IMG/VR virus record: IMGVR_UViG_3300025000_000296
Span: 1 to 32,950 of that record
Length of the DNA stretch: 32,950 bases
Reading direction: 5' to 3' (one strand)
From: a virus
Shown here: positions 1 to 17,955 of the stretch, one piece after another
How the letters are laid out: the number at the start of each line of letters is the position of its first letter
Position numbering within the stretch: position 1 is the stretch's first letter
Position numbers and translations under genes: made by a program
Notes under the pieces: generated by a model
The model's database searches: none
Seen by the model: the letters and a program-made list of their open reading frames with translations, nothing else
Told to the model about the DNA's origin: nothing

Positions 1-760
1 GGGCAAATGCATAGGTCATCGTACCTACAGCGCCTGGTGAGCCAGCGACGAACTTATTACGTAGGGACTTCTGTAAAAAGTTACTTCTGCAAAACTCCCT
101 AAAAAGTTTAACCCAATCCCTCTGAGGATCTTTCGTAGTTCCTTCTAAAGACTGAGGCATGATAGCTGCAGCTCCTACAGCATCCATTGACTTCTCAACA
201 TCTAAGCTAATTGTTAATTCATGGTTTTTTTCAAAAGATTTAGCAAGCTCAGCCCATGTAACAGTGTTCACAGGATTCATAGTAAGTACGACATTACGCA
301 AAATAGATTTGACTATTTTACCTGTTTTACGGTTACGTTCCTTAACATTACCTTCAATAGACCATCCCATCGTTCGCTTCGTAGCACTCTTCTGAAGGTC
401 TTGCATAGCTTGAATCGCTTCCTGAGCAAGCTTTCTTTGGGCAAAGAGTTTTGCCTTAACAAAGATACCTTTTACTACTTCATGACGTGTAGGGTGTGTA
501 AATTGGCCTATTTTAACCTCTAGGGGTTCCCCAATAAACTGGTTTGGGGCGTTACCGTGTTCGTATTTTACCCATCCCTTTTCGAGGAAATATGAGCAGT
601 CCATCCCCTCAGGGGTTATGCTGTCATCTTCTTCATCTACAGAATCCGTTGTCATAACTCCTTGGACGATGTAGTCGCCATTTTCATCAATTTCAATAGA
701 CTTCATAAGCCCCTGATCCTCAATGGGTATAAACACTCTGTATGTATCATCAACTAGCAA
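1..760 (-). CDS. Prohead (capsid maturation) serine protease, partial
   Basis: This gene runs off the left edge; 253 codons are visible. I chose a TTG start at 760 because it follows directly on a stop codon and a GGAAGGTGGTG ribosome binding site; no ATG or GTG is well placed. The N-terminal half fits phage prohead proteases: an early beta strand (YRVFIPIE), then VKYEHGN with candidate catalytic His68, then MGWSIEGN with candidate nucleophile Ser134, followed by the typical LTMNPVN segment at about 159-165. In such families the protease cuts head proteins before DNA packaging. It carries LQK-S at 122-125 and again at 229-232, beyond the catalytic domain, plus a weaker VEK-S at 188-191. These match the peptide found between domains of the giant proteins, so they may be autocleavage sites. 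The remaining C-terminus, perhaps scaffold or capsid, lies outside the window. The family assignment is from motifs by eye. Confidence 0.75.
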   Translation of the reverse strand, partial: MLVDDTYRVFIPIEDQGLMKSIEIDENGDYIVQGVMTTDSVDEEDDSITPEGMDCSYFLEKGWVKYEHGNAPNQFIGEPLEVKIGQFTHPTRHEVVKGIFVKAKLFAQRKLAQEAIQAMQDLQKSATKRTMGWSIEGNVKERNRKTGKIVKSILRNVVLTMNPVNTVTWAELAKSFEKNHELTISLDVEKSMDAVGAAAIMPQSLEGTTKDPQRDWVKLFREFCRSNFLQKSLRNKFVAGSPGAVGTMTYAFA

Positions 761-796
761 CTATTTCACCACCTTCCGAAGTGAGTGTAAGCTGAA

Positions 797-881
797 AGCT
801 AGGATGGCCAAAGACACGCTGCTTGGCTAGGTGAGCTGGCGAAACCTTGGCCTAGTCTACGTGTCTTGGGCCATCCTAGCT
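797..881. other. Long imperfect hairpin upstream of the protease gene
   Basis: Arms of 22 bases (797-818 and 860-881) are complementary except for one position and enclose 41 bases, inside which CTAGG (827-831) can pair with CCTAG (851-855). On the minus-strand transcript the structure lies about 35 bases upstream of the protease ribosome binding site. There is no T-run after it, so it does not look like a standard terminator. It may be an RNA processing or translational control element; the function is unknown. Confidence 0.6.
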
Positions 882-961
882 GTGTTATACACGGATTTTG
901 TTGCCCTAAATATTTAGTTACTGCTAAATATACCAACTTCGGAAGTAAATGGCAAGATAAA

Positions 962-1120
962 TTAAATAATTATGCCAATAAAACTTTCATTAAGTATAAA
1001 CCCTAAGTAACCTGCAGAGGAGGGCTCTAAGTGATTATTTACCATATCCGGAAGATCCTGAATTACAGAAAGCTGATTAGTGCCTATGCCTAGACCTACC
1101 CCAATTCCGATTCTACCCAT
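962..1120 (-). CDS. Small hypothetical protein (52 aa), glycine-rich start
   Basis: The ATG at 1120 sits one base after the stop codon of the upstream gene (TGA-T-ATG), with GGCGGTG as a possible ribosome binding site, so translation may be coupled. The product begins MGRIGIGVGLGIGTNQLSV and ends in a hydrophobic stretch (GFILNESFIGIII). I do not recognise a family. The tight junction to the structural gene before it suggests a real late gene, but at 52 aa it could be spurious. Confidence 0.45.
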   Translation of the reverse strand: MGRIGIGVGLGIGTNQLSVIQDLPDMVNNHLEPSSAGYLGFILNESFIGIII

Positions 1121-1121
1121 A

Positions 1122-1442
1122 TCAATACACCGCCACTATGCCTACGGCTGTTGTACCTGATGCCTTGACTCGCTTAACGGATATGGGATGCACAACACCG
1201 ATGCATAGAGAAGCAAACGTAACTTCTGTACCTCCGGATAGTACTACCGTGATATTGCCTAAGCCACCGATGTACAGGCCAATCGTTGGCCCTTGAGCCA
1301 GATCCTCAGTATCTGAAGGAACTACTGGGTAGGCTCTTTTTACTAGGTTATCATTAACAACTACTTTCTGAGCACCCTCTGAAACCTGTGCAGCCTCCCA
1401 CTGGAGTGTAGTAGGATTCCAAAACCGTTCAGCATCTGCCAC
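1122..1442 (-). CDS. Virion surface/spike-base-like protein
   Basis: This is 106 aa from a GTG start at 1442, supported by an AAGGGGG ribosome binding site 7 bases upstream. The C-terminal half (IGGLGNITVVLSGG, then TEVTFASLCIGVVHP, ending VKRVKASGTTAVGIVAVY) has the alternating beta pattern and the RV-ATGTTA-GI-A-Y ending known from small phage proteins described as decoration or spike-base proteins. It lies between the giant protein B operon and the protease gene, in the head region. I infer a small virion surface or base protein; the family match is from memory of the pattern. Confidence 0.5.
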   Translation of the reverse strand: MADAERFWNPTTLQWEAAQVSEGAQKVVVNDNLVKRAYPVVPSDTEDLAQGPTIGLYIGGLGNITVVLSGGTEVTFASLCIGVVHPISVKRVKASGTTAVGIVAVY

Positions 1443-1443
1443 A

Positions 1444-1650
1444 TTAATACCCCCTTACAACTAGTTTACTTTTAGCAGGTTTTTCTGATAGAGCCCCTAG
1501 GATAATTGGGACTTCAACATGTGTTTTGCATGTCGGGCATATAGCTATGGCTTTACCCTCTGAGAATAGAATCATCCGTGAGCGGATCTTGTACCCGCCA
1601 CTCTGCGTTGAATCCATAATGATCCTCTTACACCCAGGACACTGCACCAT
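1444..1650 (-). CDS. Small zinc-ribbon protein
   Basis: This 68-aa protein has CPGC at residues 4-7 and CPTC at about 38-41, a two-knuckle zinc ribbon spaced by a short beta hairpin. It resembles small phage Com-like zinc proteins in size and cysteine spacing, but I cannot assign a role. It ends one base before the next gene. GGGGGTGTAAGCT precedes the ATG. A second zinc ribbon is found in the Ig-like domain protein at 19860-20594. Confidence 0.6.
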   Translation of the reverse strand: MVQCPGCKRIIMDSTQSGGYKIRSRMILFSEGKAIAICPTCKTHVEVPIILGALSEKPAKSKLVVRGY

Positions 1651-1672
1651 AGCTTACACCCCCATACTTAGG

Positions 1673-1924
1673 TTACTTAATACTATATATGGCCTTTTTA
1701 GAGACTACTAGATAGTCAGAGTATTTAAACTTAGCGCACATCTTAAGAAGGCTTACCCACAAGACTTCTACCTCTGTCTGTATCGTATCATAATCCATAC
1801 CCGCAGAAGATAACTCTTGCCTGAACTTTACCTCATTTTTTGCTAAGTATTGTACAGCTGCTTTAACTTCAGAAGAATCTTTTAGTTCCTCGAATGAATC
1901 AGCATTGAACATTTGTTCATCCAC
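1673..1924 (-). CDS. Hypothetical protein (83 aa)
   Basis: The gene starts at GTG 1924 with GGAGG eight bases upstream. The product is mostly helical and acidic at its N-terminus (MDEQMFNADSFEELKDSSEV). I recognise no family. It follows giant protein B by 18 bases and is probably co-expressed with it and with the zinc-ribbon protein. It carries one CTTCNGAAG palindrome at 1867-1875 in a frame reading Ser-Ser-Glu. Confidence 0.5.
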   Translation of the reverse strand: MDEQMFNADSFEELKDSSEVKAAVQYLAKNEVKFRQELSSAGMDYDTIQTEVEVLWVSLLKMCAKFKYSDYLVVSKKAIYSIK

Positions 1925-1942
1925 AGCCTAAACCTCCATACT

Positions 1943-4900
1943 TTATAGAATAATAACGAGTTTAAGTGCTTTAGCTACCTGCCTACCAACTTGAGGTGGG
2001 GGATTTTCGCTGGGCTTTGGTCTTTGAATGCTACCTGGGTCACCTGTTGTCCCCTTTGGCTTAGCACCTGCTCTTCGTTTCTGACTACGAGTGAAGTTCT
2101 TGGCTGAACTAATCTTAGCCTCTGAATCTCCAAACTTAGTGACCTCTTCAGCATCTCGTGTAGCCTTAGCGACTCTTTTGATATCCCCCATCTTTGCGTC
2201 TTCAGCGTTGAACATGAAGTCTTCAATGGTCCCGGGCATATGCAGTGATTCAATGCGAACGCTATTAGCTCGTCCTACTTGCGCATGCCCACCTGATGCT
2301 GAGTCTGAACGTCTTACTCGGGCGGTAAACTGCGCCATTTTCTGGGGGTTCCAGTCTTGATCCATCATTAACATTAAGTGTGCGTTACCGAGGTCCACGC
2401 CTTCTTTACCTGCAGGGGACACTGTGGTGGCCCACATATTACCCTGGTTCTTAGCATAGCTGTTTTCTTCCTTGCTACCCCTGAAGCTCGATTTGATCTC
2501 TTCTCGTTCCTTAGACTCCCCGGTAAACTGTCCAGAACTTAAGCTTTGCCCTTGTCGGTCAAGTTTATCTGCCCAGTACGCTAAGTGCGGGTGCTCACGC
2601 TGTAGATCACGAATAACTCCATCTGCAATATCGGTTCCAAAAGTAGTGTAACTAGACTTCACAACGACTTTAGGCATCAACTCTGGTTTACCTGCTTTAG
2701 CTCTGGCTTCGTTCTCAGTAGCTAATGAATCTAGGTAGGTGCTTATACGCTGTTTCATATACTCTGCCTTAGGATTATTGTGGTGCATCGGTGCCATGAG
2801 CTTAGGACTTCCGTCTTTGTTTCGTTTAAAACTACCTTCTCCATCACTTTCAAAGTACCGCCTGTCACCGTGTTCATCAACCTTATAGTGGCCTTCACCT
2901 GTGACTGGGTTATAAGGTTTTAATCCCCCGGCCTTCGCTTTCTTAACTTTGGCCCCGGGTTCTGCTTGTGCGTCTGTATCTCCTGAATCTAGTGCACTTC
3001 CCCCACCAGGTACATACATCTTACTGGCAAGTGGTGCGTTCAGGTGCTTTTGAAGCTTTTGCATAGCTGTTAGATAGTTCTTAGACGCTCCCTCTTTACC
3101 TTTTTCAGAATTGTCATAACCTGTTTCACTGGCCTTTACAAGTTCACTAAGTTTAGAATCTGGCAGGTACTGTTTCTGAATCTTACGATACTCGTCGTAA
3201 AAATCTTTTTGGTCATCGGTTAGATTCGTGGGAGATGTGGTATTGGGCATGGCCCCTGGTTCGTAGTCGAAGACACTGTGTTTCGTTCCATAAGTATCTG
3301 TTGTCTTTTGATCACGATTGCGGTCTGCCATATTACTCATGAAGTCTTCAGGAGCATTCTCCTTTTGGGCTGCGTCACTGCCAACGATGTGAGGAAAATG
3401 AATCTTAGATCCATCATTGTACTGAACATCTTCTGAACCCCTAAACTGGACAATGTTAGCTACAATGTCTCCGAGCTTATCAGCCATCGTTGGCTTAACT
3501 CCGATAACTTTACCATTCTTGTCCTTCATAAGGAACTTCTCTGTAAACTCCTTAGCTGTACCGAGTTCATGTCTTCCACCTGTAACAGTATCAATAAGGC
3601 TATGGACTTCACGAGCATCATTTTCCATAGGAGTACCTGACAGCCCCCAGACATTTTTAAAGGACTCAGTTGTTTCAGCTAGTGACTTCCCACGCTGCCG
3701 GCCTTGGTTCTTAAAAGCATGTACTTCGTCAACGATGATGTTATCATACAAACCGGATTTTGAAAGAGCATCTCTGTGCTTCATGAACTGGTCATAGGAC
3801 ATAATATGAAAGTCATGGTCTTCTGAACCGATGCTTCCCATGTTATTTACAAAGTGCTTAGAACTCACAGCTTCTTGCTCAGTACCATCCATCCCAAACA
3901 TGTGCCGATCATTCTCAGACTTCATCCAGTTACCACCACTATCTCGCTTCCGAAGACTACCTTCGGATCCAATGTAAAGAGCTCTGGAGTTTGTCTCTTT
4001 TCCTATCTCTTTACCCCAGTCCGATTGAATTCCAGCAGGTGAGACGATGAGAGTTTTACCAGGTTTCCTACCTTCAGAGATAGCCTTAGCTTTCTCGTGC
4101 AAAGCTGCTGCCATCCCTGTGATAGTCTTCCCCGTACCCATCCCGTGCCCCACTATACCGCGCCCTCGTTCAACTAAATGTGATAATCCCGCTAGCTGTG
4201 TACCATAGAGTCCTTTGTCCATGATCCGACTATCAGGCTTAAACTGAGCTCTATATGCCTGACCAAAGGCACTTTCTGAGTCACTAGCATTTGGCTGATA
4301 GGCCTTCTGAAGCTCTTCAGGACTTTTAGGCTTACGATCCTTGCGGTTGAAATGCTCTGCTAGGTGTTCCCTAGCATCATGACTTACAGACAGGCCTCCT
4401 AGGGCTTCCCTAAGCTCTTCGAACTTACCTGCTGAAATCTTAGCCGTTCCATCGTTCAAGACTCTAACCCCATAGGTAGACACTTGGTCCCTCATAGCTT
4501 CAGGTACATGAATCTCAAGCTCTTTTGTATAAGCACTCTTAAATTGTTTAAGGAGCTCTTTACCTGCTTTTGATCTACCGAGGCGCTTGGTTAGCTGCTT
4601 CATCATAGCATCTGATAGCTCAAGTTGGATGTTCATAACACCGTCTTTATCAAAGGCACTGTTTATCCCTGCCTTCTGAAGCGCTTGACTGAAGAGCTCT
4701 TTTACCTTGTCAACTTTCTTCTGATCTTTAGGATTATCTGCTTTAAAGGTACTTGTAGTATCCATCCGGTGTGTACCCGTCTTCGCAGTTTTAACGACTG
4801 ACTGGCCACTTGCTGATAAGGTTCGACCTTCTTCAGAAGCTTGCTTAAGCTCTGACTTCTTGAACATTCCTATGACATGACCTTTGCCATCGGTTACCTT

Positions 4901-7900
4901 GTAGGTGTCCCCTTCAATAGAGTGGATTCGCCCTTTTCTGAAGCCTTTTTCTCCTGGGTAGAGAACAGCGTTTCCTTCATTCATAGCTACTTTGTTCTTA
5001 GTCGTTAGACCTCGATCTACAAGCTTTCCTCCCTTGAACAAAGCTTTGATTGGTTCCCCTGTCGCCGGATCTATGGCTCCTTTAGGTATGTCATTGGTAT
5101 CCATGAATCGATAGCCATCATACTCTCCACCAACTACCCGTGGAGCCCCTTTTCCATCATACTCTAGCTGAATGTGGTGGCCAAGAGAATCACTAATATG
5201 AGTTCCACTCCCTGAATGAGCAGTTACCCATGCCTTATTACCTACAGCGCCTTTCATGACTTCATGGAGGTCCTTTTCGTTCATAATAGGTTTTCGCTGC
5301 TTCAGAAGCCTTGCCATGACTGGATCTGTGATTGTCCCCTTAGCATCGACCATAACAGTGTTCTGAGTACCATCAGGCATGTCCTGTGCATAGGTATGAC
5401 TCGTTACTTCGCCCTTTTTATTTCGACTCTGGTTAACAAGCTTGAAGTCCTTGTGAGCCATGCCCTCTTGCAGACCTAGCTTGGTGTTGGACCGTGCCTT
5501 AGCATACTCAGCTTCATCGATCTGCTTCATAAAGGGCTTATCACCCTCAGAGTTTGCTTTCTTGGCTAAGATGTCCTGAAGACCTGAGGCATCAGCGCCT
5601 GTGTACCCTAGAGCCTTTCCTAGGCCTCCCCATGTGTTTAGGTCCTCATGTTGACCACCATCAGGATCGAAGACTTCAGCAATCGTTGAACCAAATCTAG
5701 TATGGGCCCCACCTTGACCAGCCTTAGTAACTTCATTCTTAATTCTTAGAGCTATGGTTTTACCTGTGAGGGGATTACCCACGAGGTATGTACCATCAGG
5801 CAAAAGCTTTTTACTGGCCTCTTCCTTAGCCCTTGTAAGCTCATTTTGGCCTAATAAGTCGGCTATGGTGTCCTCATCAGCGCCTTTACGTACTTGGGCT
5901 AGTAGGCCACTATTACCTGTTTTACCGACCATCATCTTTGCGTTTTTACCTGCCATAGATCCAGACTTAGACAGGGCATCCATGATCTCTTTTCGGTCTG
6001 CTTCAGTATCTCCGCTGTCACGATACTTCTGTAGGGCTTCTTTAACGCCTTCCTTTTCTAGATAACGTTTGCCTAGAAACTTCTTACGCTCGTCCTCGTT
6101 CATCGTTTCATAAGCTTTTTGCTCGTCTTCTGTAAAGTTGGCATAGTCGTGGTGCCCTTTGTGCTCATGCTCTCTTAAGTAGGTCTTCCGTATGCCTAGG
6201 TCCTTATCTGTTTCGTCACCGCGCCAGTCCTTGCGCATTGTTTCCATGTCTTCTTTAAAGGCTTCGATGCCCTCGTCCTTATGCTCAGCGTCCTGCTCAT
6301 GGTGGAAGTCGATCTTATCCTCTGGAGCGCTCTCATTGTGCTCTTCCCTGTGTACAGAGTTAGCCGAATCATAGATGAGCTTTCCATCAGAAGTATTGAC
6401 TAAGACCCGTTTACCGCCCCACGTAACCCATGCACTGCCTGGGTTCTTCAGAAGGAGTTCTTCTGACCATGTATGCCCAGAACTCTTTTTTCTAGCCGAT
6501 CCATGCTGGGCTTCAGATAGGCTAGAGTACTTTTTTGAGTTGGCCTTTATATAGTCCCCCATCTTCTTATTGACCTCATGCTGCTTACCCTTATGGGGAA
6601 ACATGGACTTCTCTAGAGACGAGTTGAAGCTTTTATAGAGTTCATTATCCTCAGGTAGTCCAAACTCAACAATTCGAGCATGGAGCTCTCCACCCTCGGT
6701 GTAGACTAACGATCCAATGTACTCTTGAGGTGCCATAGACTTCTGCAGGGAAAGAAGGTTATCTGCCGTGGCAATCCTCGTTTGTTTGTATACCAAGACA
6801 TCAGTACCTATTCCCCATGAGTTCAGGGACTTCACAAGATCATACTCATAAAGTGATTTCATAATGAGGTTAAAGACTAAAGACTTCAGCATAGCAAGTT
6901 CTTTTAAGGCCGGATGATTCTTCGTTCGAGCATCGGATAGCTTAACCATAGCACTTCTGTAGTATTTATTAACCCAATCCTTGGTGGCTTGTTTACCACC
7001 TTCATACCCACCCTGTTTATTAATAGCATCGGCTACTTCGTCAAGGGTCATATTCCCTTTGTTGATCTTAGCAGAAGGGCTTCCGAACATAGTCATAAAG
7101 ACCATCTTCTCTTTACTACTGAGCCCGATGTCTTGGAGAACTTTAGGTATTGCCGTCTTAAGCTCTTTTTGGCGCTCTTTCTGCTCATACTGTTCATCTG
7201 GTGTTGCTTCTGTGCTCTTCACGTTAGATGCTGCTGAGCCTGCAGTACCCTCTTCTCCATCGATATCTTTATCTAAGGTGGTGGTCTTCTGCCTGTCTCT
7301 GTAGGCCTGTAAGGTCTTTAAGCGTTCCACCGGATCACTGATTCGCTTCTTAGTGGCTATCCACTGCCCTGCTTTTTCATCATAGGTTGGGTTGTCCATA
7401 ATCGGTGCGTTTTTAAACTTAGCTGAAGTCTGTTGCAAATGATTCGCAAGTTCTTCCGTTGATGGTGTGTGGCCTAGACTCTGGGTTAGCTCTGTTTTTC
7501 CCTTGTGCAGGTCTGCCAGTGCTCCCCTGATTTCATGGGGTGCCGGGACCTCATTTAGAAGAGCATACATATCCTTGTGCAGCTTCTGCTTCATACGGGA
7601 TATAACATGGGCTCCAATGTTGGTGTCTTTACCAGGGTTCTGGCTCCCGCTCATGACCCGGTATAGAGTTTCGTACATACTAGCCCGGGCCGTCTGAAGA
7701 AGATCCCCGTAGTAACCTGTCTCTTGATTATGGACCTCACCGTCACCACTTGGGCCAACGTCACCTATACGATTAACTTGGCTAAGGAGATTCATTCCCC
7801 GGGCCTTACCCATCTGAAGAGTCGTGTGGTAGGCTAAGCGGTCATTTTGAGTAGTCATATCTCCAGCAATCCGGCGAATATCAGCCTCTGAGCGTTTACC

Positions 7901-8545: not shown

Positions 8546-8572
8546 ATGAATCCCCTCCTTCTGGGCAAATAA

Positions 8573-8613
8573 AAAATGGGGCTAAGTAGCCTTAAGCCAC
8601 TTAGCCCCATTTT
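8573..8613 (-). terminator. Rho-independent terminator between giant genes A and B
   Basis: A perfect 15-bp stem (8573-8587 with 8599-8613) has an 11-base loop and is followed on the minus strand by a T-rich tail. It lies between the stop codon of protein A (8654) and the start of protein B (8545). Readthrough or a separate promoter is needed for B; I see no clear promoter downstream of it. Confidence 0.85.
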
Positions 8614-8653
8614 ACCAGACTTTAGTAATTAATTATACACAGACTTCCGAAGC

Positions 8654-11600
8654 CTACCTTTTACCGTTGTAGATGGAGTCATAACTTCTTCTGTAGCTAC
8701 CCCATGCCTCTGCTGATAAATGATCCGTAGATCCTTTGACTTCTTTTTTGACGTACTCATCAAACGTAGGGGCTGTCTTAGGAGATTCGCCATGTTTTTC
8801 AATGTGCTTCTGAATCATAGCATTGATATTTCCCTTATTGCGCTCTATTAGATCTTTAGCTACTTTTATAGCTAAATTCTTACTGCTGTCGCTTGTAATT
8901 TTAAGACCAGAGCGAGCTTCTGAAACTACCCATTCCCCATCTTTACCATGGATAAAAGCATGAACTCCTTTACCTACGTTCACCTTTTCTGCATGCTCAT
9001 ATACTGGCATGTACTTAACTTTTCCACTTTTACCTTTAGGTACAGCTATGTGGTACGGGGTTTCTTCTGGCTCAGATCCAAATATGACCCCGGCTTTACC
9101 TGGTTCTGCTGTTGCTGGGCTTTCCCCATGTTTTTCGATATGTGACTTTATATATTCAACAAGTTTAGTAACCCCATGCTCAGCTGTTCTTCTAGTAGCC
9201 TCTTGTATAGCGGATTCTCTAGTTTTACCCTCTGCGAGTGAAAGACCTGTCTGAGCTTCTGTAACTACCCATCTCTGATCACCTGCTCCTTTGTGTATAA
9301 ATGCGTGGACTCCAGCACCTACATCAACCCTCTTACCGTCTACAGGTACATAGGTTAACTTACCTGTGTGATCCCCTACAGATTTATTTGACTTATAGTA
9401 CTGACTTATCTTAGGCTCTTCCTTCTTAGGCTCCTCTTTTGGTTTATTAGCATCCATAAACTCCTTGAAGGCATCAGCCATGGAAGTAGTCTCTGCATGA
9501 TGCTTGAGTACTAGTTTTTTATGTTCTTGATCTGACCATTCCTTCTGCTGTACTAAACTAGCACTACCTGCTAAGTGTTCCCTGTATCGATCATGTATAA
9601 CTCCTACATACTCACCTTGTGCCCCTTTCATGTACCCCATTTTAATCATCTTGTCATGGAAGTATTCATCAGGTGTCATCTCCCAAGGCTCTTTCTTAGG
9701 TTCAGTACCAGCCATCAGTAGTTCAAGTGGGTCAAAGTCTGCGAAAGCTTTTTCATCTGCAGCAATCTGCTCAGGAGTCCTGTTCTTCCTAGCCTCGCGT
9801 GCCTCTTGATCTTTATACATCTGTTCAGTGTTTGCTTTGACCTTACCTAGGAATTCCTCGTGTTCCCGCTCTTTTTGAGCTTTAGCATCAGCTTTTGCCC
9901 GCTTAGCTCTCTTTGCAGCTTCATTTATGGCTACTGCCTTAGCAGCAATGTCTTTAGTAAACTTTTTGTCTTTTTTATAGGCTTCAACGGCCTTCTGAAC
10001 ATCCACCGCACTGTACTCACGACCTATAACTTCTTTACTTCCTGTGGCATCTAACTCATCCCGCCCTTGGGCACTGAAACTGTTTGACGTTGTACTGTGC
10101 TTCAACGTTTGTAGAATAGCTTCCCTATGACCTGCTGGTACACCATACTCACCCATAAGTTTTTTAGCATTGGTTGCACTTAATCTTTCGCCCATCTTTG
10201 CGTCCACTCCTTTTGTTTTGGAGGTTCCCTCCCCCTTAGCCTTATCATACATAGGCTTTTCGGATTTGTGGACGACAGGTTTCTTAGCCTCTTTATCCAC
10301 GGTCTTCTGGTGCTCAGCTAAATGGGATTTTGTCGCCTTCTTTGCTCCTTTGGCCCCGGGTACTGACCCAGCTAGGATCTTTCCATCCTTGATATAGACG
10401 TGGTGACCACTCATGGTCCTCCATACCCCGCCCTCAGGAAGGTCCTTATGCACTCCTTTAGCCTCTGAGCGGGTGATTGACTTTTGAAGATCAATGTAGA
10501 GTCCTTTGACAATCGGTGTCTTAGGAACGAGCACCACCCCGACAATTGAACTAGCGGGTATCTTTCCTAAAACCTCAATTTCTCCTAATTCGTTCTCTGT
10601 TCCCTGGTATTCTACAGCTAAGACATAAGCTTGTTTCTCATGGTAAAGGTCATAGTTTGAGCGGGCATACCCTTCTGCTTGGCTAAAAAGAGTACTGAAG
10701 CAAGTAACTACATTTTCTTGGTCCCCATCGTTTCCTTTGCCCTTGGTCTGGATGTATCCGGACTTCTGAATAAAGTCGTATTCCTTTTGGCCTATGCCTC
10801 GAAACATAACTCCTGGTGCGTTGTCATATGGGAAGGCGCTTAGTCCAGTGTCTACTTCTGGTAGATAGACCAATGACTTCTGAAGATCATCAAGCGCCCC
10901 CTCATTCCCGGCCATATAAGCTAAGACTTTCTTGAGGTTATGCTCATGGTTCTTCTCATCAGCGATAATCTCAGCGATAACTTTCCGAATCTTAGGGTCT
11001 TTGATCTGTTTCAGGCGCTCAGAGTAATCAAGAATTGCTTTCTTCTCTCCATCTAGGTCCGTAGTGGCTATATCATCTTTAAGGGATTTCCATAACTCCG
11101 AGTACTCTTCAAAGAGTCTCTGCTTGTCAATGTCGTTGAACTCCCCAATAATACACGGGCAGTGGGTGTAATTTCTGATCTTACTAGCTTCGAGCTTATG
11201 GTGGCCGTCATGGACCTCATAGTTCCAGCCAATAATGATAGGAGCTATAAGGCTCCCATCTTCCATTCTTGTAACGAGAGAACGTACCTTATCAAAGTCG
11301 AGGGCTTTGTCCGTCTGGAAAGGGGTCTGAAGTCTATTCGTCGGGATATAGAGTATTTCATCTATGGGATTGTCAAAGGATGATCCATCAACTTGGTAGG
11401 CGCTTCTTATACTTGGGATTACTGGCCTCTGTAGATCACTTCGTCTGATAATACCCTTCTGAAGATCAAAGCTTAGGCCTTTTTGGATGGCCTTCTCACG
11501 TTTTACAACGTCCATAAGATTATCGAAGGCTTTACTAATAGCTACGGCTTCTTCACCTCTTGGGTACGGGGACCCTGGGTCTACACCTTTAGCTCCATAA

Positions 11601-14600
11601 ACTAGATAGTCATTGTGGATCTTCTTACTCTGCTCCATTTTCAGCTGAAGATGTGTCTCAAAAGCCCGGGCAAATAACTCATGCGGTCGTACCCAATAGC
11701 TATTTTCTTTGAGTCCACCAACTCGAAGAGAGTCTAGGTAATACTGTGATCGTCCTGTACTAACCATAAGAGTATCAGGTGCTTCTCCAGTTGCCTTCTT
11801 GTGTAGGTATGCCATTACCTGAACTGCACTATTAATGTCTTTTCTGGTTTTCATAGTTTTTGTGACTTCTTCAATAGCTTTATCTAATCCTAATGTGTCA
11901 TAAGCTGTTTTCCAGCTTCTAGGGTAGCTTGAGTACTCAAGGTTTTGGTTATGGATAGCCTCTTTACCTTTACCATCGCCTACCTTAATAGCCTGCATAA
12001 GACTTCTATAGGCACTTGCCAGCTCAGGTGAGGAACTTTCTGAGAAAACTCCTTTATCGTCAGACGCTAAATTAGTTGATGCTTTACCTGTCATGTACTG
12101 GTAGAGGATATTGTCCATGGCGTGGCCCCATTCATGTCCAAGACTTCCCGCTCCACCATTCTTCGTGATATTGATAACCTTCATATCAGGTTCATAGTGA
12201 GCTAATCCCCAGCCACCACCACGAGCACCAAAAGCCATTGCTAGTTTACCATTAAGTGAAATGTCCTTATCCTCTAGGCCTAATAAATCTGCTAAGTCAT
12301 GCATTGCTTCAGCTGACTTCACAAGATGAAAGCTACCTGACTTATCATCAACATAATGCCCGAACTCTACCCCACGGAAACCGAACGTCTTAGCCATATC
12401 TTCAGGCTTCTGAACACTTGTTTTACGGCCACCAATGCGCTGTATCTTCTCAGGCATCACCTTTTCCCATTTTTCAGCTGTTCCGCTTTCCTTTTTCTCC
12501 TTAGCAAAACGTGGACTAACTTTACCTGTAGCTACTTGATTTTTCAGCCATGAGTCAAGCCGACTACCATTACTTTCAACATAGCGTTTAGCGCCAGCTA
12601 TAGCTTCTTCTTTTGTGGCTCTTCCGTAGGCCGAAGATAGGGGTATCCCTGTCTTAACTTCATGAATGAAGTGTTTACCATTAGCATCAACATAGTGGAA
12701 TGCCTCAATATTAGGGGCTATGTCAATAGGTGTAGCATCTTTTGCTAGTTCAAACTTAGTGCCCTTGGTTGACTCCTTTCGGTAGTATTGCTGGCTCTTT
12801 TCTTCATCGGTTAGTTTCTTAGTTTCTTTACTTCCGAAGTACTTAGCCCATGTCAGCTTTTTGTCTCTTAGGGTCTGGTTGGTCCTTGCCTTACTCTCAT
12901 GATCTGTGAAGTACTTTGTTAGCTTCTCACCGAGTGGGAAGAAGGGTTTCTTAGCTAAAGTTTCAGACATAGCTATACTGGCTTTGATTTCGTCAATACG
13001 TGCCTGCTTCTCGGCCCTCCATTGCTCAGGAGTTAAGTCTACAGGTTCCCGTTCCCCTGTTTTAGGATTACGCCTGCTAGTTCTTAGGTCATATTGTGAC
13101 GGCCCATCCCTTAAATCTCTTTCTTGATAATGGAGAATACCTTGCTGATTTTTTAGATACTTAGGGTCTTCCGTTTTCATATAGTTCCTTAAGTAGCTAT
13201 AAGCCCCATCGAACTCCTCTTGTGTCTTATGAGGCTCAAGTAGGCGCTGCAACTCGTTAATAGCTCGCATATAGTGAGCTCTTGCTACGGGGGTATCTTC
13301 AGGAGGCTTTGCTGCTATTCGATCATAGATGAGCTGCTTAAGCATAGCAACATTGACATCGACTCCCCGCTCCATTTCAGCTTTGAAATCAACAGGTGCT
13401 AAAATATTCTTTTTAACACACAAGGTCTGCGCGACTTCAGGAGCTACTTCTTCTAAAGCTTCAAGCCCCTGCATCGTTGGCTTTTCTGCAAATTCTGCCC
13501 GTAGACTAGCTTTATCCTTCTTAGATCCCCAAACTTTCTGACCAACATCACGAGCAGTTGTTTTGTTGACCTGGGCTTCAGTACGAATATCCGCAACTTC
13601 ACCCTTTTTAGTCTTCTTAGGCTTAAGGTCTGGGTACTCATCTAATACAGCTTTAGGAACCTTCTGCCCTTCGTCTAAGGCCTTGGATACCAGACGTTTG
13701 TGTTGTGACTTAAATGACTCTAGGTTAAGGTTAAAATTAGCATTTCTCTTTTTGAGGGCTTCAGCGTACTTACTCCACGGAAGTTTCCATGCTTGGCCTA
13801 AATCTTCTTTGCTCTGTGTAAAACTTGAGGCATCAGGGATCATAGACATAATGTCTTTAGGATCCTCTATAGGTTTAGCCTTAGCCTTGGCCTTAGCTGG
13901 CTTAGTACCAAGCATCTCATGGGCTGCTTTCTGCTGCTCTTCAAGCGTTGCTTTCTTGCTCTTAGCTTTTGGCTTCTTAGCAAGTGCATCCACGTCTTTC
14001 TTCTGCTTTGCCATGAACTCAGGTGTTACCTTGGTTCGTTTCGTTGAGGACTCTTTGTTATTAGCTCCTTTGAGCGTGTCTTCAATAGCCTCTTTACCTG
14101 TTTTGGGCTTAGCTTTACTAGATGTAGACTTCTTGGCTTTTCTTGCAGCATCAGCAGCAGCCTTAGCTTCTTTGTCTATGGTTTCCTGATGTTCAGCTAA
14201 ATGGGCCTTCGTCGCTTTCTTAGCACTCTTCACTCCCGGGATAGCACCAGCCAATACCTTACCGTTGAGAATATAGATATGGTGCCCGTTCATTGAGCGC
14301 CACACACCACCAGGTGGCAGGTCCTTGTGCAGAGACTTTGCCTGAGTCTTAGTCACTTTACCCGGTGCAAGGGCCTTCTGAAGATCAATATAGAGTCCTT
14401 TAACTACGCTCATGATACTTCTCTCAGCATACGAGCGGAATGCCCAGTGCCCAGCATCGATATCCTGCCTGCTATTGGTATTAGGGACAATGACATCATA
14501 GAGCTGAATATTAAGAGTTTTAGAGGCACCTTGAATTCCTGCATTATGCAGGACTTCACTTGACCCAAGGCCTGTGTACATGAAAAAGCTTTTACTGTTA

Positions 14601-16123
14601 GCTTTAATCAAACTTTCAAGGGCCTTCTTCCGAAGCTTATCTGGTGGCAAAGTTACATCAAGGGGCTCAGCATGGGTAATCCCGTTCTTTGTGTCAACGC
14701 CAATGATGTAGATTGATTTATCCGCATCATGAATACTAAGATTACTCTTGATGTAGGCTTTTACATCATCTACACCGTTCATCCTAGGGCCCGGTACACT
14801 GGCATCCTTTTCTTGGTAGGTTTCATAGACAGGGGCCTGCTTAGTTCTCATGATCTTAGAACGATCCATATTCTTGTTGAACTCAACAATGCTGCCATTG
14901 CCATTTAAGGCTGTGTACTCATTATCCCCTATGACAACATGACCACCGAACCTCATACCCATATGGTCTGCTACATCCCTAAAACGTTCGGTAACCGCCA
15001 CATCCGGTTGACTCGGGGTGCTATCTCCTGTTGGGTGGTTATGGATTAGATAAACTGTATCTGCTCCGGATAGGAGCGGTACTTTCATCATGTCTTTAGG
15101 ATCAATAATACTTGAATCAACATTACCTATGTGAGCACAGTGAATACCTACGACTTCCCCATCTTTGGTTCCCATAACATAGCTCTTCTCACGATCTGAA
15201 TCAGTTAAATCAGCGAAAACTTGGGCCACGTCTTCACGGCTATTCACCTGCATATTAGGCACAGCATAACTACCTATTCGACGAGCGACGACTCTTACAC
15301 GCCCCTTGTTTTGGTAGTCAGGTACTAGGTCGCTAGATTCTGAATTGCTAGTCTTAGGTAGGGAAACAACCTTAGGCTTAGGTACTCGTTTCTTAGTTGG
15401 ATTATCAATTACTGGGGGCATCTTAGGGGCTGCTGCCTCACTAGCTTCAGTAGGTTTTTTAGAAGCCTTTGGTTTAGGTTCTTTATGCCCAGGTGATAGC
15501 CCTCTCATAGCCTTATGGTCAGATATTTTGGTATCGAAGTATTCTTGACCCCAACCACTAAGCCTAATCTCTGCGTGTTTAATAGCGTCTTCTTCCCCTG
15601 TGTAGGATGAAACTATTCTGGTCCCTGTTGTAGCCTCGTAGATATACGTATCTTCTGGATGCTCAGGGTCTGGGTGCTCCATGAAGAAGGAACCCTTAAC
15701 AGACTTCAGCTTAACTTCTTTAGCATTGATGGCTTCTTTATAGGTCCCTGATCCAATATGGTAAACAAAGAATTTCTTAGGTGTAGGCTTTTTAGGCACT
15801 GCTTTCTTAACCGCTGCTTTCTTAACTTCAGGAACATTGACCACTAGCTCTTTTTTCTTGCTAGTGGTCTTCTTAGTCGTTGCTACTTTGCTACCAGCGG
15901 TCTTTTTTGGGGTAGCCTTGCTCTTGGTAGACTTTTTTGGTGTACTCCCCTTAGCTTTTATCTTTGCACTTGTCTTAGGTGCTTTTTTAGGCTCCTCCTT
16001 AACAACTGAAGAGACAATACCTTCATGCTTCTTAGCAAATTTTCCATCTCTTGCTCTCGGGTGAAGTTCTTGCTTAAAATACCCCTTTATAATGTCTAGG
16101 TCTTTTAAGTTAAGTATCTCCAT
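8654..16123 (-). CDS. Giant polyvalent protein A: JAB/RadC, zincin, ParB-like and ART domains
   Basis: This is 2489 aa from the ATG at 16123; an upstream ATG at 16129 is only one base from AAGGAGG, so the second is preferred. Domains: HPRARDGKF motif (about 21-29); Lys/Ala-rich linker; repeat domain (about 115-200); JAB/RadC-like metallo-domain with H361-x-H363 and S371-x-x-D374; a degenerate second JAB (about 440-560); WRSMNGHHIYI motif; KALDEGQKVPKAVLDEYPDL domain (about 800-835); second repeat domain (about 1138); zincin with H1330-E-W-G-H1334 and WVRPHELFARAFE, resembling the LPD1 domain of polyvalent proteins; ParB-like HDGHHKLEAS (about 1638-1647); ADP-ribosyltransferase-like domain with FRG (R1775) and FST (about 1814); a second WRTMSGHHVYI motif; two more repeat domains (about 2271 and 2384). 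LQK-[A/G/S] at K583, K1556, K1749 and K1881 separates these blocks, giving pieces of 583, 973, 193, 132 and 608 aa. Likely packaged in the head and cut by the prohead protease (inference). Confidence 0.85.
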   Translation of the reverse strand: MEILNLKDLDIIKGYFKQELHPRARDGKFAKKHEGIVSSVVKEEPKKAPKTSAKIKAKGSTPKKSTKSKATPKKTAGSKVATTKKTTSKKKELVVNVPEVKKAAVKKAVPKKPTPKKFFVYHIGSGTYKEAINAKEVKLKSVKGSFFMEHPDPEHPEDTYIYEATTGTRIVSSYTGEEDAIKHAEIRLSGWGQEYFDTKISDHKAMRGLSPGHKEPKPKASKKPTEASEAAAPKMPPVIDNPTKKRVPKPKVVSLPKTSNSESSDLVPDYQNKGRVRVVARRIGSYAVPNMQVNSREDVAQVFADLTDSDREKSYVMGTKDGEVVGIHCAHIGNVDSSIIDPKDMMKVPLLSGADTVYLIHNHPTGDSTPSQPDVAVTERFRDVADHMGMRFGGHVVIGDNEYTALNGNGSIVEFNKNMDRSKIMRTKQAPVYETYQEKDASVPGPRMNGVDDVKAYIKSNLSIHDADKSIYIIGVDTKNGITHAEPLDVTLPPDKLRKKALESLIKANSKSFFMYTGLGSSEVLHNAGIQGASKTLNIQLYDVIVPNTNSRQDIDAGHWAFRSYAERSIMSVVKGLYIDLQKALAPGKVTKTQAKSLHKDLPPGGVWRSMNGHHIYILNGKVLAGAIPGVKSAKKATKAHLAEHQETIDKEAKAAADAARKAKKSTSSKAKPKTGKEAIEDTLKGANNKESSTKRTKVTPEFMAKQKKDVDALAKKPKAKSKKATLEEQQKAAHEMLGTKPAKAKAKAKPIEDPKDIMSMIPDASSFTQSKEDLGQAWKLPWSKYAEALKKRNANFNLNLESFKSQHKRLVSKALDEGQKVPKAVLDEYPDLKPKKTKKGEVADIRTEAQVNKTTARDVGQKVWGSKKDKASLRAEFAEKPTMQGLEALEEVAPEVAQTLCVKKNILAPVDFKAEMERGVDVNVAMLKQLIYDRIAAKPPEDTPVARAHYMRAINELQRLLEPHKTQEEFDGAYSYLRNYMKTEDPKYLKNQQGILHYQERDLRDGPSQYDLRTSRRNPKTGEREPVDLTPEQWRAEKQARIDEIKASIAMSETLAKKPFFPLGEKLTKYFTDHESKARTNQTLRDKKLTWAKYFGSKETKKLTDEEKSQQYYRKESTKGTKFELAKDATPIDIAPNIEAFHYVDANGKHFIHEVKTGIPLSSAYGRATKEEAIAGAKRYVESNGSRLDSWLKNQVATGKVSPRFAKEKKESGTAEKWEKVMPEKIQRIGGRKTSVQKPEDMAKTFGFRGVEFGHYVDDKSGSFHLVKSAEAMHDLADLLGLEDKDISLNGKLAMAFGARGGGWGLAHYEPDMKVINITKNGGAGSLGHEWGHAMDNILYQYMTGKASTNLASDDKGVFSESSSPELASAYRSLMQAIKVGDGKGKEAIHNQNLEYSSYPRSWKTAYDTLGLDKAIEEVTKTMKTRKDINSAVQVMAYLHKKATGEAPDTLMVSTGRSQYYLDSLRVGGLKENSYWVRPHELFARAFETHLQLKMEQSKKIHNDYLVYGAKGVDPGSPYPRGEEAVAISKAFDNLMDVVKREKAIQKGLSFDLQKGIIRRSDLQRPVIPSIRSAYQVDGSSFDNPIDEILYIPTNRLQTPFQTDKALDFDKVRSLVTRMEDGSLIAPIIIGWNYEVHDGHHKLEASKIRNYTHCPCIIGEFNDIDKQRLFEEYSELWKSLKDDIATTDLDGEKKAILDYSERLKQIKDPKIRKVIAEIIADEKNHEHNLKKVLAYMAGNEGALDDLQKSLVYLPEVDTGLSAFPYDNAPGVMFRGIGQKEYDFIQKSGYIQTKGKGNDGDQENVVTCFSTLFSQAEGYARSNYDLYHEKQAYVLAVEYQGTENELGEIEVLGKIPASSIVGVVLVPKTPIVKGLYIDLQKSITRSEAKGVHKDLPEGGVWRTMSGHHVYIKDGKILAGSVPGAKGAKKATKSHLAEHQKTVDKEAKKPVVHKSEKPMYDKAKGEGTSKTKGVDAKMGERLSATNAKKLMGEYGVPAGHREAILQTLKHSTTSNSFSAQGRDELDATGSKEVIGREYSAVDVQKAVEAYKKDKKFTKDIAAKAVAINEAAKRAKRAKADAKAQKEREHEEFLGKVKANTEQMYKDQEAREARKNRTPEQIAADEKAFADFDPLELLMAGTEPKKEPWEMTPDEYFHDKMIKMGYMKGAQGEYVGVIHDRYREHLAGSASLVQQKEWSDQEHKKLVLKHHAETTSMADAFKEFMDANKPKEEPKKEEPKISQYYKSNKSVGDHTGKLTYVPVDGKRVDVGAGVHAFIHKGAGDQRWVVTEAQTGLSLAEGKTRESAIQEATRRTAEHGVTKLVEYIKSHIEKHGESPATAEPGKAGVIFGSEPEETPYHIAVPKGKSGKVKYMPVYEHAEKVNVGKGVHAFIHGKDGEWVVSEARSGLKITSDSSKNLAIKVAKDLIERNKGNINAMIQKHIEKHGESPKTAPTFDEYVKKEVKGSTDHLSAEAWGSYRRSYDSIYNGKR

Positions 16124-16135
16124 GCTCATCCCTCC

Positions 16136-16390
16136 TTATGCTTCAACTACCTCCGGTTCCTGCACTGGTATCTTCGATGGCCACACGTTAGGCGTGTGGT
16201 AGGCTTTAGTCATCTGTCCCCTGCAGTGTAATTCCATGGACTTCACTAGCCCTTTTCTCTCCATATGCCTAAGCTGCTCCCGGCCAACATCAATAGCCTT
16301 CAGAACTTGAGCGGTTACTGGGTAGCCAGTGCCTCTTACCAGTCGTTCAATGGTTTGAGCAATAAACTGTGTATCAATAGGTTTTTTCAT
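16136..16390 (-). CDS. Small winged-helix-like protein
   Basis: This 84-aa protein contains a pattern typical of winged helices: IERLVRGTGYPVTAQVLKAI, then GREQLRHMERKGLVKSMEL, followed by a basic hairpin-like tail. It lies directly upstream of giant protein A, 12 bases away, so the two are probably translated from one transcript. AGGAG lies about 10 bases before the ATG. Its start would overlap the ancestral stop (ATGA) of the preceding membrane gene before the 56-bp duplication. Function unknown; DNA binding is inferred. Confidence 0.55.
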   Translation of the reverse strand: MKKPIDTQFIAQTIERLVRGTGYPVTAQVLKAIDVGREQLRHMERKGLVKSMELHCRGQMTKAYHTPNVWPSKIPVQEPEVVEA

Positions 16391-16444
16391 TCTTTGCCAG
16401 CTCCTCTTTTATGTATCTTATACCATGCAGCCACCTCAGCCGGT

Positions 16445-16556
16445 CCCCATAAAATCATATAACACAGTAAAATATGAACATGCTCTCTAGGTCTATGTGC
16501 CCCCATAAAATCATATAACACAGTAAAATATGAACATGCTCTCTAGGTCTATGTGC
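16445..16556. repeat. Perfect 56-bp tandem duplication
   Basis: Bases 16445-16500 are repeated without change at 16501-16556, with a few further matching bases after. The period of 56 is not a multiple of three and the repeat lies in a small membrane-protein gene, so it shifts that gene's reading frame. Identical copies indicate a very recent event or an assembly artefact. Confidence 0.95.
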
Positions 16557-16640
16557 CCCCATAGCTTCATCATGCTCTTTGCTGAATAGATAGGCACCGT
16601 AGATCACATACACTGCTATAATCCACCACGGATAAAACAT
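16455..16640 (-). CDS. Small membrane protein, C-terminus altered by a 56-bp duplication
   Basis: As it stands the gene gives 61 aa starting MFYPWWIIAVYVIYGAYLF, a single N-terminal membrane segment. The 56-bp tandem duplication makes the second copy read in another frame and ends the protein early. With one copy removed, the frame continues from YMILWG into GPAEVAAWYKIHKRGAGKE and stops at a TGA overlapping the ATG of the next gene (16390) in an ATGA junction. That is the normal phage arrangement, so the single-copy form is probably ancestral. Position next to head genes does not reveal its job. Confidence 0.6.
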   Translation of the reverse strand: MFYPWWIIAVYVIYGAYLFSKEHDEAMGAHRPREHVHILLCYMILWGHIDLESMFIFYCVI

Positions 16641-16664
16641 AGTTTGTCATCCCCTTTATTTCAA

Positions 16665-16681
16665 TCACGTTTCAAACGTGA
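16665..16681. repeat. 17-bp dyad between MuF and the membrane gene
   Basis: TCACGTTT-C-AAACGTGA is a perfect dyad with one central base, lying six bases beyond the stop codon of the minor head protein gene. It may fold as a short hairpin with a 5-bp stem or act as a protein site. No T-run follows. Confidence 0.5.
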
Positions 16682-16686
16682 GCGTA

Positions 16687-17955
16687 TTATTTGAGATTCG
16701 GATCGATTCCCATCCCTCGGCGAACTCTCTCTTCTTGGATCAATTCAACCGTGGTCTTCAGTACTGGCTTACCCTCTGCATTAGTCTTGTAGAAACGACT
16801 AAAGGCATGCAAACGATGCCGGCAACATGGATGTAAGGGAACACAGGGGATCCACTCTTTTGTTAGTCTTCCGTAATTACTTTTACCTACCCATATGTAC
16901 TTCAGAGGGTCGGCACCCGGGTCTGAGGTCACTATGAACGTCTTTCCTTCGATTAACTTTTTGCAGTAATCACAGGACCCTTCAACAGGCGGTATCCAGA
17001 CTTCTGTACCTTCAGCGCACCCCGCGATAAAAGTATCTGAACTAGCCATGGCAAGCTCTGTAATAGCCACTCTGCGCCAGTCTCTGTTCTGATCTCCGAA
17101 GGCATCAAAGAGGGCTTGAGCTAGCTTCTGAGCACCCCAGCGCTCATTCTGTGCTCTAATCACTAGTTGCCGGACACCTGCCCGGTGTTTATTACTGATT
17201 TCTTGAATCTTGTCCCCTGCTCGTAGGTTCGCATGTTCTACTGCTCTAAGCTCTTGGGGTTGCAATGGAAGGATCTTTACTGTCCTACCCTCAGCCTTAG
17301 CCCTCTCTTGCTCTTTGAGAGTCAATACTAGGCCTTCATGCTCTGCCTCTTTGATCGTCGAAGGAAAGCGGTCCACAAAGGCCCCAACCGTACTCAGCAT
17401 CTCAGTGTCTGCATGACTTCTGATCTTAGCAATAAAGGCTGCTCTTATAGCAAACTGTTCAGCTAATTTTGCGTAGTCTGGTAGCTTCTGTTTCATGATA
17501 TCGTCGATCTGCTTAAGCTTAGCTTTAGTCCACTCAGTCCCCTCTTGCAGTAGCTTAGCAAAAGCATTGCGCTTAGTCTTCGACAAGTTGATAAGGTCAC
17601 TAAGCTTGTGTTTTCCATTGTCTAGGGCCTTAAACAGTTGATCCTCATAAGCTAAGAACTCAGGACTAAAGGCCTTCTGTAGCTGTACTGGCTCATCGCT
17701 TAACTCTAGTGCTGCGATTAGTTCTGCCATATTTTCCATTGCTGGACCCACTAGAATTTCATAGAGTTCATCTTCAGCTTCACCTAATAGCTGCTCATCG
17801 TTCGTGGTCCACACTGTACGCTCTAATCCAGAGGCCTTAGGACTTTTAACATTTAAGGCCTTAGACAGCTCAGAGACTATTTGAAGTTTATGGAAATTTG
17901 ACAGATCTTTTAGGGTCTTCGGAAGTACGATATTCAATTGCTTCAACCTCCTCAA
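16687..17955 (-). CDS. MuF-like minor head protein
   Basis: This 422-aa protein follows the portal gene by six bases, the classic place for a minor head/head-morphogenesis protein. Its C-terminal half has the SPP1 gp7/MuF-type features: GDQNRDWRRVAITELAMASSDTF, then CDYCKKLIEGKTF, and the closing VPLHPCCRHRLHAF with paired cysteines and histidines that may bind metal. The N-terminal part is helical. LQK-A occurs at 92-95 (EPVQLQKAFSPEF), matching the cleavage-like peptide in the giant proteins and protease; trimming there would remove 94 residues. A palindrome CTTCGGAAG at 17917-17925 encodes Leu-Pro-Lys. Family assignment is confident; cleavage is inference. Confidence 0.8.
   Translation of the reverse strand: MRRLKQLNIVLPKTLKDLSNFHKLQIVSELSKALNVKSPKASGLERTVWTTNDEQLLGEAEDELYEILVGPAMENMAELIAALELSDEPVQLQKAFSPEFLAYEDQLFKALDNGKHKLSDLINLSKTKRNAFAKLLQEGTEWTKAKLKQIDDIMKQKLPDYAKLAEQFAIRAAFIAKIRSHADTEMLSTVGAFVDRFPSTIKEAEHEGLVLTLKEQERAKAEGRTVKILPLQPQELRAVEHANLRAGDKIQEISNKHRAGVRQLVIRAQNERWGAQKLAQALFDAFGDQNRDWRRVAITELAMASSDTFIAGCAEGTEVWIPPVEGSCDYCKKLIEGKTFIVTSDPGADPLKYIWVGKSNYGRLTKEWIPCVPLHPCCRHRLHAFSRFYKTNAEGKPVLKTTVELIQEERVRRGMGIDPNLK

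Follow-up and report, generated by a model that had tools for sequence, protein, structure and literature searches.

The window analysed here is the whole of a 32,950-base virus record from IMG/VR (IMGVR_UViG_3300025000_000296). Its late genes lie on the minus strand, in the transcription order terminase large subunit, portal, MuF-like protein, protein A, protein B and head maturation protease, the last of which is interrupted by the window end. The subject of this analysis is a short lysine-containing motif that recurs in these head genes, above all in proteins A (2491 amino acids, aa) and B (2200 aa), whose genes are placed between the MuF-like and protease genes. Both proteins carry at least two functionally different domains, the mark of so-called polyvalent proteins: RadC/JAB, zincin/LPD1, ParB-like and ADP-ribosyltransferase (ART) domains in A, and a sigma-70-like region and an SNF2 helicase in B. 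Relatives of the protease were found at 14 IMG/VR loci, and six contigs were examined whole (G001, which is 102 kb, G003, G004, G005, G006 and G007). G003 is approximately the same phage as the window, with a 100% identical protein A, and G004, G006 and G007 were counted as independent, with 45-62% identity across the first part of B.

A preliminary description of this locus, in which the numbering of protein A fits a start at the second Met (2489 aa), had proposed LQK followed by S, A or G as a cleavage site that is too frequent to be expected by composition. All 11 copies are indeed present in the head block: K585, K1558, K1751 and K1883 of A (in the 2491-aa numbering used here), K9, K602, K1291 and K1414 of B, K94 of the MuF-like protein, and K124 and K231 of the protease. 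Shuffles that keep the composition of these proteins, five in the head block, give an expectation of 0.4 +/- 0.7, and the remaining genes of the window contain no copies (0.1 expected). B has two more LQK (LQKY and LQKH) that fall outside the S/A/G rule. In the alignments the conserved element is wider than this: a hydrophobic residue, any residue, K, then S, A or G (in falling order of frequency) and a second hydrophobic residue, with LQK as its commonest spelling. Across four divergent phages (G001, G004, G006 and G007), the head blocks hold 105 matches to the pattern [LIVMF]xKS[LIMFVYW] where 8.5 are expected, compared with 33 in the other genes of those four phages where 29.1 are expected. 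When the K at P1, the residue ahead of the candidate bond (↓ below), is replaced by other residues in the pattern, K stands out as 12-fold over-represented; only C (10-fold) and W (4.6-fold) also exceed two-fold, each on 4 counts. A profile of 138 sites has L at P3, a preference for Q at P2 (22 of 138), many more S than A at P1', and at P2' one of L, F, M, I and V. Orthologous sites can have Y, K, R, E or another residue in place of the Q.

The sites also have a characteristic position. As the preliminary description had it, those in A lie between recognisable domains: K1558, K1751 and K1883 fall in low-confidence linkers that separate the zincin, ParB/sulfiredoxin-like and ART folds, and K585 is directly ahead of a repeated 'HKDLPxGGxW' module (Table 1). 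In an AlphaFold model of A residues 1200-1965, all six sites tested (K1550, K1558, K1681, K1751, K1875 and K1883) have a predicted local distance difference test score (pLDDT) below 50, in segments that make up 21% of the residues, and the fold matches fill the stretches between them (~384-473 in the model for ParB/sulfiredoxin). VIA-align gave no families other than the zincin, ART/Tpt1 and ParB/sulfiredoxin folds. The ART module is assigned by fold match only, the Pfam search of it being without match. Among the relatives, a site was found within 45 residues upstream of the module core (75 for ParB) in 9 of 12, 5 of 6 and 8 of 9 distinct contexts for the modules compared; with a chance of 0.14-0.24 per search span, the binomial P is 3e-6 to 2.5e-4. 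The HEWGH of the zincin is present in all homologues of A, with an LPD1 match at the module end; there the K-[GA] of the first tandem site (K1550) is kept in 8 of 8 homologues. At K1681 the WK is kept in all eight, and is followed by S in seven and G in one.

The ART module is a good example of how these borders behave, since K↓[SA] stands ahead of it in almost all of its contexts despite differing upstream sequence. This sequence can be ParB directly (G004, L062), a helical insert (in G001 and the window), a longer one (L056, L063) or the gene start (G007). After ELWK↓S the relatives have nothing, the helical insert, an 'HKDLP' module or a ~200-aa insert before ART, and the modules inserted here end in a site of their own; in G004 and L062 ELWK↓SI leads straight to the ART module. 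The full pattern HKDLPxGGxW...GHHxYIxxGKxLAG occurs twice within A, following LQK↓A and LQK↓S. In G006 relatives of this module start two separate genes, with leaders that end in LDLFK↓SITRSQAK and FDLIK↓AITRTQAK, the former being that of the 473-aa gene G006_2. Comparison of sequences establishes the motif and shows that it is confined to head genes, conserved and placed at module borders. Two side observations concern the inserted modules. A weak Rubrerythrin match (E=0.001, below the cut-off) overlaps the helical insert of A (residues 1682-1751, 10877-11086, minus strand), and suggests a small ferritin-like helical module between ParB and ART. In L063 (open reading frame 5965-10455), the long insert ahead of ART contains another module of the type 'GGRW...GGKVVAG' and a second metallopeptidase-like motif, HEIGH.

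Comparison supports eight of the 11 LQK copies as sites, and the remaining three look like products of chance or structure. B K1291 (LQKAG) lies within a conserved stretch where the homologues read ALRKAK and ALKKAK, and has no hydrophobic P2'. B K1414 (EELQKAY) is lost in homologues, as in G004 with EELKQRY. Protease K124 (DLQKSATKR) is conserved within the catalytic domain, also in the Herelleviridae phage EFDG1 (TIQKSGISR), and again has no hydrophobic P2'.

Table 1. Modules, candidate sites and other features of the head-gene block, in window coordinates. An arrow marks the candidate bond.
Feature	Coordinates	Strand	Evidence or comparison
A leader, residues 1-15, MSMEILNLKDLDIIK↓G	16082..16129	-	relative L055 MEILNVRSLDLLK↓G
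A RadC/JAB module core	14897..15244	-	PF04002, E=9.8e-21
A double site VVK↓GLYIDLQK↓A (K577, K585)	14372..14407	-	flanks leader-like octapeptide
A 'HKDLPxGGxW' module, copy 1	14150..14374	-	homologue is the N-terminus of separate G006 genes
A zincin-fold module (HEWGH)	11480..12475	-	zincin-fold PDB matches, model residues 20-351, Z ~9
A tandem site IQK↓GLSFDLQK↓G (K1550, K1558), zincin-ParB border	11453..11488	-	low-pLDDT segment 351-374
A ParB/sulfiredoxin-like module	11087..11455	-	phrog_26754, E=8e-19; ParB and sulfiredoxin folds
A site ELWK↓S (K1681) at the ParB module end	11084..11095	-	begins low-pLDDT segment 482-504
A inserted helical module between K1681 and K1751	10877..11086	-	absent in G004, L062
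A site DLQK↓SL (K1751), ART module start	10874..10885	-	low-pLDDT segment 552-568; ART border site in 5/6 contexts
A ART-fold module	10505..10876	-	ADP-ribosyltransferase/Tpt1 fold, Z <=10.7, model residues 572-674
A double site IVK↓GLYIDLQK↓S (K1875, K1883)	10478..10513	-	low-pLDDT segment 672-686; octapeptide as in copy 1 and B leader
A 'HKDLPxGGxW' module, copy 2	10265..10480	-	N-terminus of the 473-aa gene G006_2
B leader MNLYIDLQK↓, residues 1-9	8519..8545	-	counterparts in relatives
B residues 185-545, module 1: candidate sigma-70-family factor with regions 2-4	6911..7993	-	Sigma70_r3 and fold matches
B six-site cluster K554, K563, K572, K602 (LQK↓SM), K638, K646	6605..6892	-	homologues
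B SNF2-type helicase module	2309..4162	-	SNF2-rel_dom E=2e-18; sub-threshold Helicase_C match, E=2.7e-4
B C-terminal tail VAK↓ALKLVIIL (K2192)	1946..1978	-	relatives with intact C-terminus: AK↓SLKLVIML, TK↓ALKLVILL
MuF-like site QLQK↓AF (K94)	17671..17682	-	relatives DMEK↓SF, EMTK↓SL, TSEK↓SF
Portal C-terminal site PLKK↓SL (K579)	18034..18045	-	relatives LKK↓SL, IKK↓SI, IKK↓SL
Head maturation protease, N-terminal 253 codons	2..760	-	phrog_1028, E=6.5e-42; C-terminal scaffold part beyond window
Protease site NFLQK↓SL (K231)	65..76	-	relatives LKK↓SL, LISK↓SL, LLKK↓SF keep K↓S-hydrophobic
B K1291 (ALQKAG), probably not a site	4670..4681	-	P2' not hydrophobic
B K1414 (EELQKAY), probably not a site	4301..4312	-	unconserved
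Protease K124, probably not a site	386..397	-	conserved catalytic-domain stretch

In protein B the start resembles a sigma-70 factor that stands ahead of a cluster of K↓S sites and the SNF2 helicase. Region 3 of the factor (Sigma70_r3, Pfam) was matched in five of five B homologues (best E=1.1e-6), and in a PDB profile search all 18 matches at E<=1 were sigma factors, weak when taken one by one. The top Foldseek matches were likewise all sigma factors (probability ~1.0, E from 1.2e-4), and are collinear over ~370 columns with low TM-scores, the predicted model having a pLDDT of 63.5. Were B packaged, injection would deliver a sigma factor, and the sigma-like module would be an early-transcription switch carried in the virion. 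In the six-site cluster the K is invariant at all six positions in five homologues and is followed by S or A, with a variable P2; K602, as an example, reads LQK, LQK, LYK, IKK and LRK. Towards the other end of the head proteins, conserved tails follow K↓[SA], namely [SA]LKLVIxL in B and an acidic stretch ending in W-x-[DE]-Y in the portal, where the site of the relatives is ~20 aa ahead of the conserved end. Either tail may represent another type of targeting tag.

The protease has its best matches in Herelleviridae and PHROG 1028. The window fragment by itself gave no Pfam match; one of its relatives shares 37% identity with the Enterococcus phage EFDG1 protease, itself a match to Peptidase_S78, and by similarity to known prohead proteases the window protease appears to be of the S78/HK97-like head maturation kind. 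Full-length relatives are fusions of the protease to an acidic scaffold, with the capsid protein gene next in order in G001, G003, G004, G006 and G007. The scaffold part contains ~10 copies of hydrophobic-x-K-S-hydrophobic (such as ELRKSL, LSKSLG, ELKKSLD and TLKKSIE), which in the closest relatives are almost never LQK. In every relative, the major capsid protein encoded by the following gene bears ELNK-AL close to the N-terminus, where SPO1 Gp6.1 aligns with LNKAL. In the capsid protein of staphylococcal Herelleviridae, the PDB chain 9row_B (439 aa) begins right after K24, at VVK↓SF, and the precursor (463 residues in 5lii) is longer by exactly these 24 residues, so that a K↓S-F bond marks the start of the deposited mature chain in this capsid family. 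Reliance is placed on the chain start because literature searches for mapped capsid N-termini of A511, SPO1 and phage K/812 gave no text stating the site. Past its catalytic domain the window protease has two candidate self-cleavage sites, K174 (TWAELAK↓SF) and K231. It is worth noting that the EFDG1 protease (L051:5989-6777) has, past the catalytic domain, LVK↓SWTTGYGITPETQTDAGALRRE, in a stretch of 20-odd residues that mimics the start of the capsid protein, IK↓GFTTGYGITPDTQTDAAALRRE, and includes the K↓[SG] bond. It looks like a self-cleavage site, with K174 of the window protease at the equivalent place.

Short N-terminal leaders that end at a site are found on both large proteins (LYIDLQK↓S in B and LDIIK↓G in A), with counterparts in relatives, and these leader-end sites would be cut. 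Leaders of the B type read LYIDLEK↓A, LYIDLSK↓A, LFIDLSSQLEK↓S, LYIDLQK↓S and LVIDLQK↓A in relatives, and each directly precedes a W-[KR]-E...H-[PK]-R motif. The N-terminal octapeptide of B recurs twice in A (VVK↓GLYIDLQK↓A and IVK↓GLYIDLQK↓S), with a looser third version in IQK↓GLSFDLQK↓G. As the octapeptide in A has candidate sites on both flanks, cutting would excise it. A regular-expression search for LYIDL peptides near sites gave few additional examples. The LYIDL-type peptide may be a targeting signal. Its distribution is most simply explained if genes that all had a leader like the capsid-targeting ones of T4 (PMC9026906) underwent fusion and fission. In four relatives, L063 (5920-6080), L064, L066 and L067, the upstream gene has the LYIDL peptide as its C-terminal tail (IKK↓SIALYIDLRKERR, then a stop), and the next gene starts at MAITRAQAK, from the residue that follows the site elsewhere, with a good ribosome-binding site ahead.

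Taken together, A and B are probably head-packaged cargo polyproteins that are cut by the head maturation protease of the phage into separate effectors, which would serve in host takeover. The modules (RadC/JAB, zincin, ParB-like, ART, sigma-70-like, SNF2 helicase and others) would be spaced by recognition sites of the protease, which, fused to the scaffold, would cut behind the Lys of hydrophobic-x-K↓[S, A, more rarely G]-hydrophobic as the prohead matures. A single step would shred the scaffold, trim the capsid N-terminus and portal C-terminus and remove the short targeting leaders, and it would free the modules of A and B as separate proteins, to be ejected with the DNA. We infer that the bonds are cleaved, that this protease is the cutter, that A and B are packaged and that their fragments are injected. 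In outline this is what the preliminary description had suggested: cutting of cargo after Lys at domain borders is well supported by comparison, but LQK as the recognition sequence is not, as homologues with the same domains do not keep LQK at the borders and do keep the wider motif.

Several points weigh against this reading. The phages are uncultured and known here from sequence alone, the case for entry of A and B into the head draws on gene position, shared sites and analogies with T4 and P1, and the capsid evidence is the length of a chain deposited for a distant relative. L063 and L069 begin the 'HKDLP' module without a leader, L068 has LQKSK, which is not the full motif, and L057 has an ART border without a site within 45 aa, VWK↓GF being further upstream. 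Some matches to the motif lie within folded helices (A K1417 and K1533) and are presumably uncut, so that sequence alone is insufficient to define a site. A further point is that A's own zincin could cut the chain. On that account, proposed for polyvalent proteins, the metallopeptidase processes the polyproteins and the head protease is uninvolved; the module is found in A of all relatives, and the polyvalent-protein paper does propose autoprocessing by embedded metallopeptidases, citing DdrB of phage P1 (PMC5512222). It is nevertheless unlikely. The head protease is favoured because the motif also fills the scaffold, the capsid N-terminus and the portal tail, because it occurs in the capsid and scaffold of Herelleviridae, of which no record matched the zincin, and because giant proteins that carry a zincin in three phages with head genes of another kind (Shewanella Y11, Dolichospermum Dfl-JY45 and Pseudoalteromonas Y3) are not enriched for it. 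The same lack of enrichment sets aside the motif as a general trait of polyvalent proteins.

The many copies in the scaffold, and the leader-like peptide that goes along with the motifs, would also fit uncut K-S-hydrophobic binding motifs by which cargo, portal and capsid protein dock on the scaffold. Such docking is rather improbable, as a P1 lysine with a small P1' suits cleavage, the border positions suit cutting better than binding, and the Herelleviridae capsid chain begins at the K↓S bond. Strict LQK↓[SAG] as the recognition sequence, the view of the preliminary description, draws on the 11 copies in the window and on Q as the most frequent P2 residue. There is very little chance that it holds: P2 differs between orthologous border sites, which are spelled LYK, IKK, LRK, LEK, LWK, LFK and LIK and rule out the strict form, and three of the copies are at non-border or unconserved places. 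Equally remote is a motif that is a functionless product of K/L-rich composition or of repeated-linker ancestry, an idea to which the two A sites in duplicated modules lend some colour; the shuffles and the P1 replacement rule out composition as the cause, there is no excess outside the head genes, and the sites are conserved at 45-62% protein identity.

Known systems show parts of what is proposed. In T4, the protease gp21 fragments the scaffold and trims the capsid protein, and short N-terminal capsid-targeting propeptides are removed from ejected head proteins (IPI-III and Alt); Alt, an ART, also loses its C-terminus (PMC9026906). There, propeptides come off single proteins and the cut is generally held to follow Glu, whereas in the window phage the cuts would follow Lys and separate several effectors in one chain. 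In a similar example, gp245 of the giant phage SPN3US cuts nine head proteins, ejected ones among them, at 14 mapped sites; Ser is the preferred P1' and propeptides contain multiple sites; besides self-cleavage, these cuts yield N-terminal propeptides, and no multi-effector chain is described (PMC10052503). Phage P1 packages the large antirestriction proteins DarA, DarB and DdrB in its head; DarA is believed to be processed and DarB has a capsid localisation signal, but these are encoded by separate genes, and N-terminal sequencing failed to locate the DarA site (PMC9024508). Known processing of ejected proteins by head proteases, in T4, SPN3US and, as believed, for P1 DarA, is propeptide removal (PMC9026906, PMC10052503, PMC9024508). 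Polyvalent proteins of phages and conjugative elements are giant and multidomain, with zincin, ParB-like, ART and RadC domains, have been compared to polyproteins, and in phages are encoded near virion genes. Their release is ascribed to embedded metallopeptidases; serial-site processing in trans by a head protease is not proposed in the available part of that account, and the paper as a whole lacks the term 'sigma factor' (PMC5512222). Herelleviridae (the Staphylococcus phage group, EFDG1, SPO1 with Gp6.1) share the 37% identical protease (EFDG1), a related capsid protein that has K↓[SG]F close to its N-terminus, and K-S-hydrophobic in the scaffold; their records in the phage collection contain no homologue of the zincin part of A or the sigma region of B. 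What would be new in A and B is head-protease-processed cargo in the form of a serial, cassette-like polyprotein.

This offers a mechanism by which giant multi-effector phage proteins would be resolved into working parts, by the head protease and not an embedded peptidase. From genome sequence by itself, the rule would predict the packaged phage proteins and the starting point of each effector, and site-bounded cassettes would explain the free reshuffling of domains in such proteins. A more far-reaching idea, which is tentative and has the odds against it, is that the cargo consists of interchangeable cassettes, effectors with an LYIDL-type 'address' peptide walled by K↓[SAG] sites, and that the load includes a DNA-delivered sigma-70-like factor. 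The address peptide would be N-terminal in B, within the fusion in A and C-terminal in the upstream gene of L063, and with site-walled addresses new effectors could be joined to the injected load by mere insertion of a cassette. The sigma-70-like factor, delivered with the DNA, would redirect host RNA polymerase at once.

As to the distribution of B, its sigma part has no match among known phages, and no relatives of B were found among 84,980 bacterial and archaeal species genomes. In G004, the frame of the B homologue (L033:5857-10626) stops after 1590 aa within the helicase motifs (VVGHG, then divergent). This early stop, unlike the other relatives, is a true truncation, a frameshift or an assembly error.

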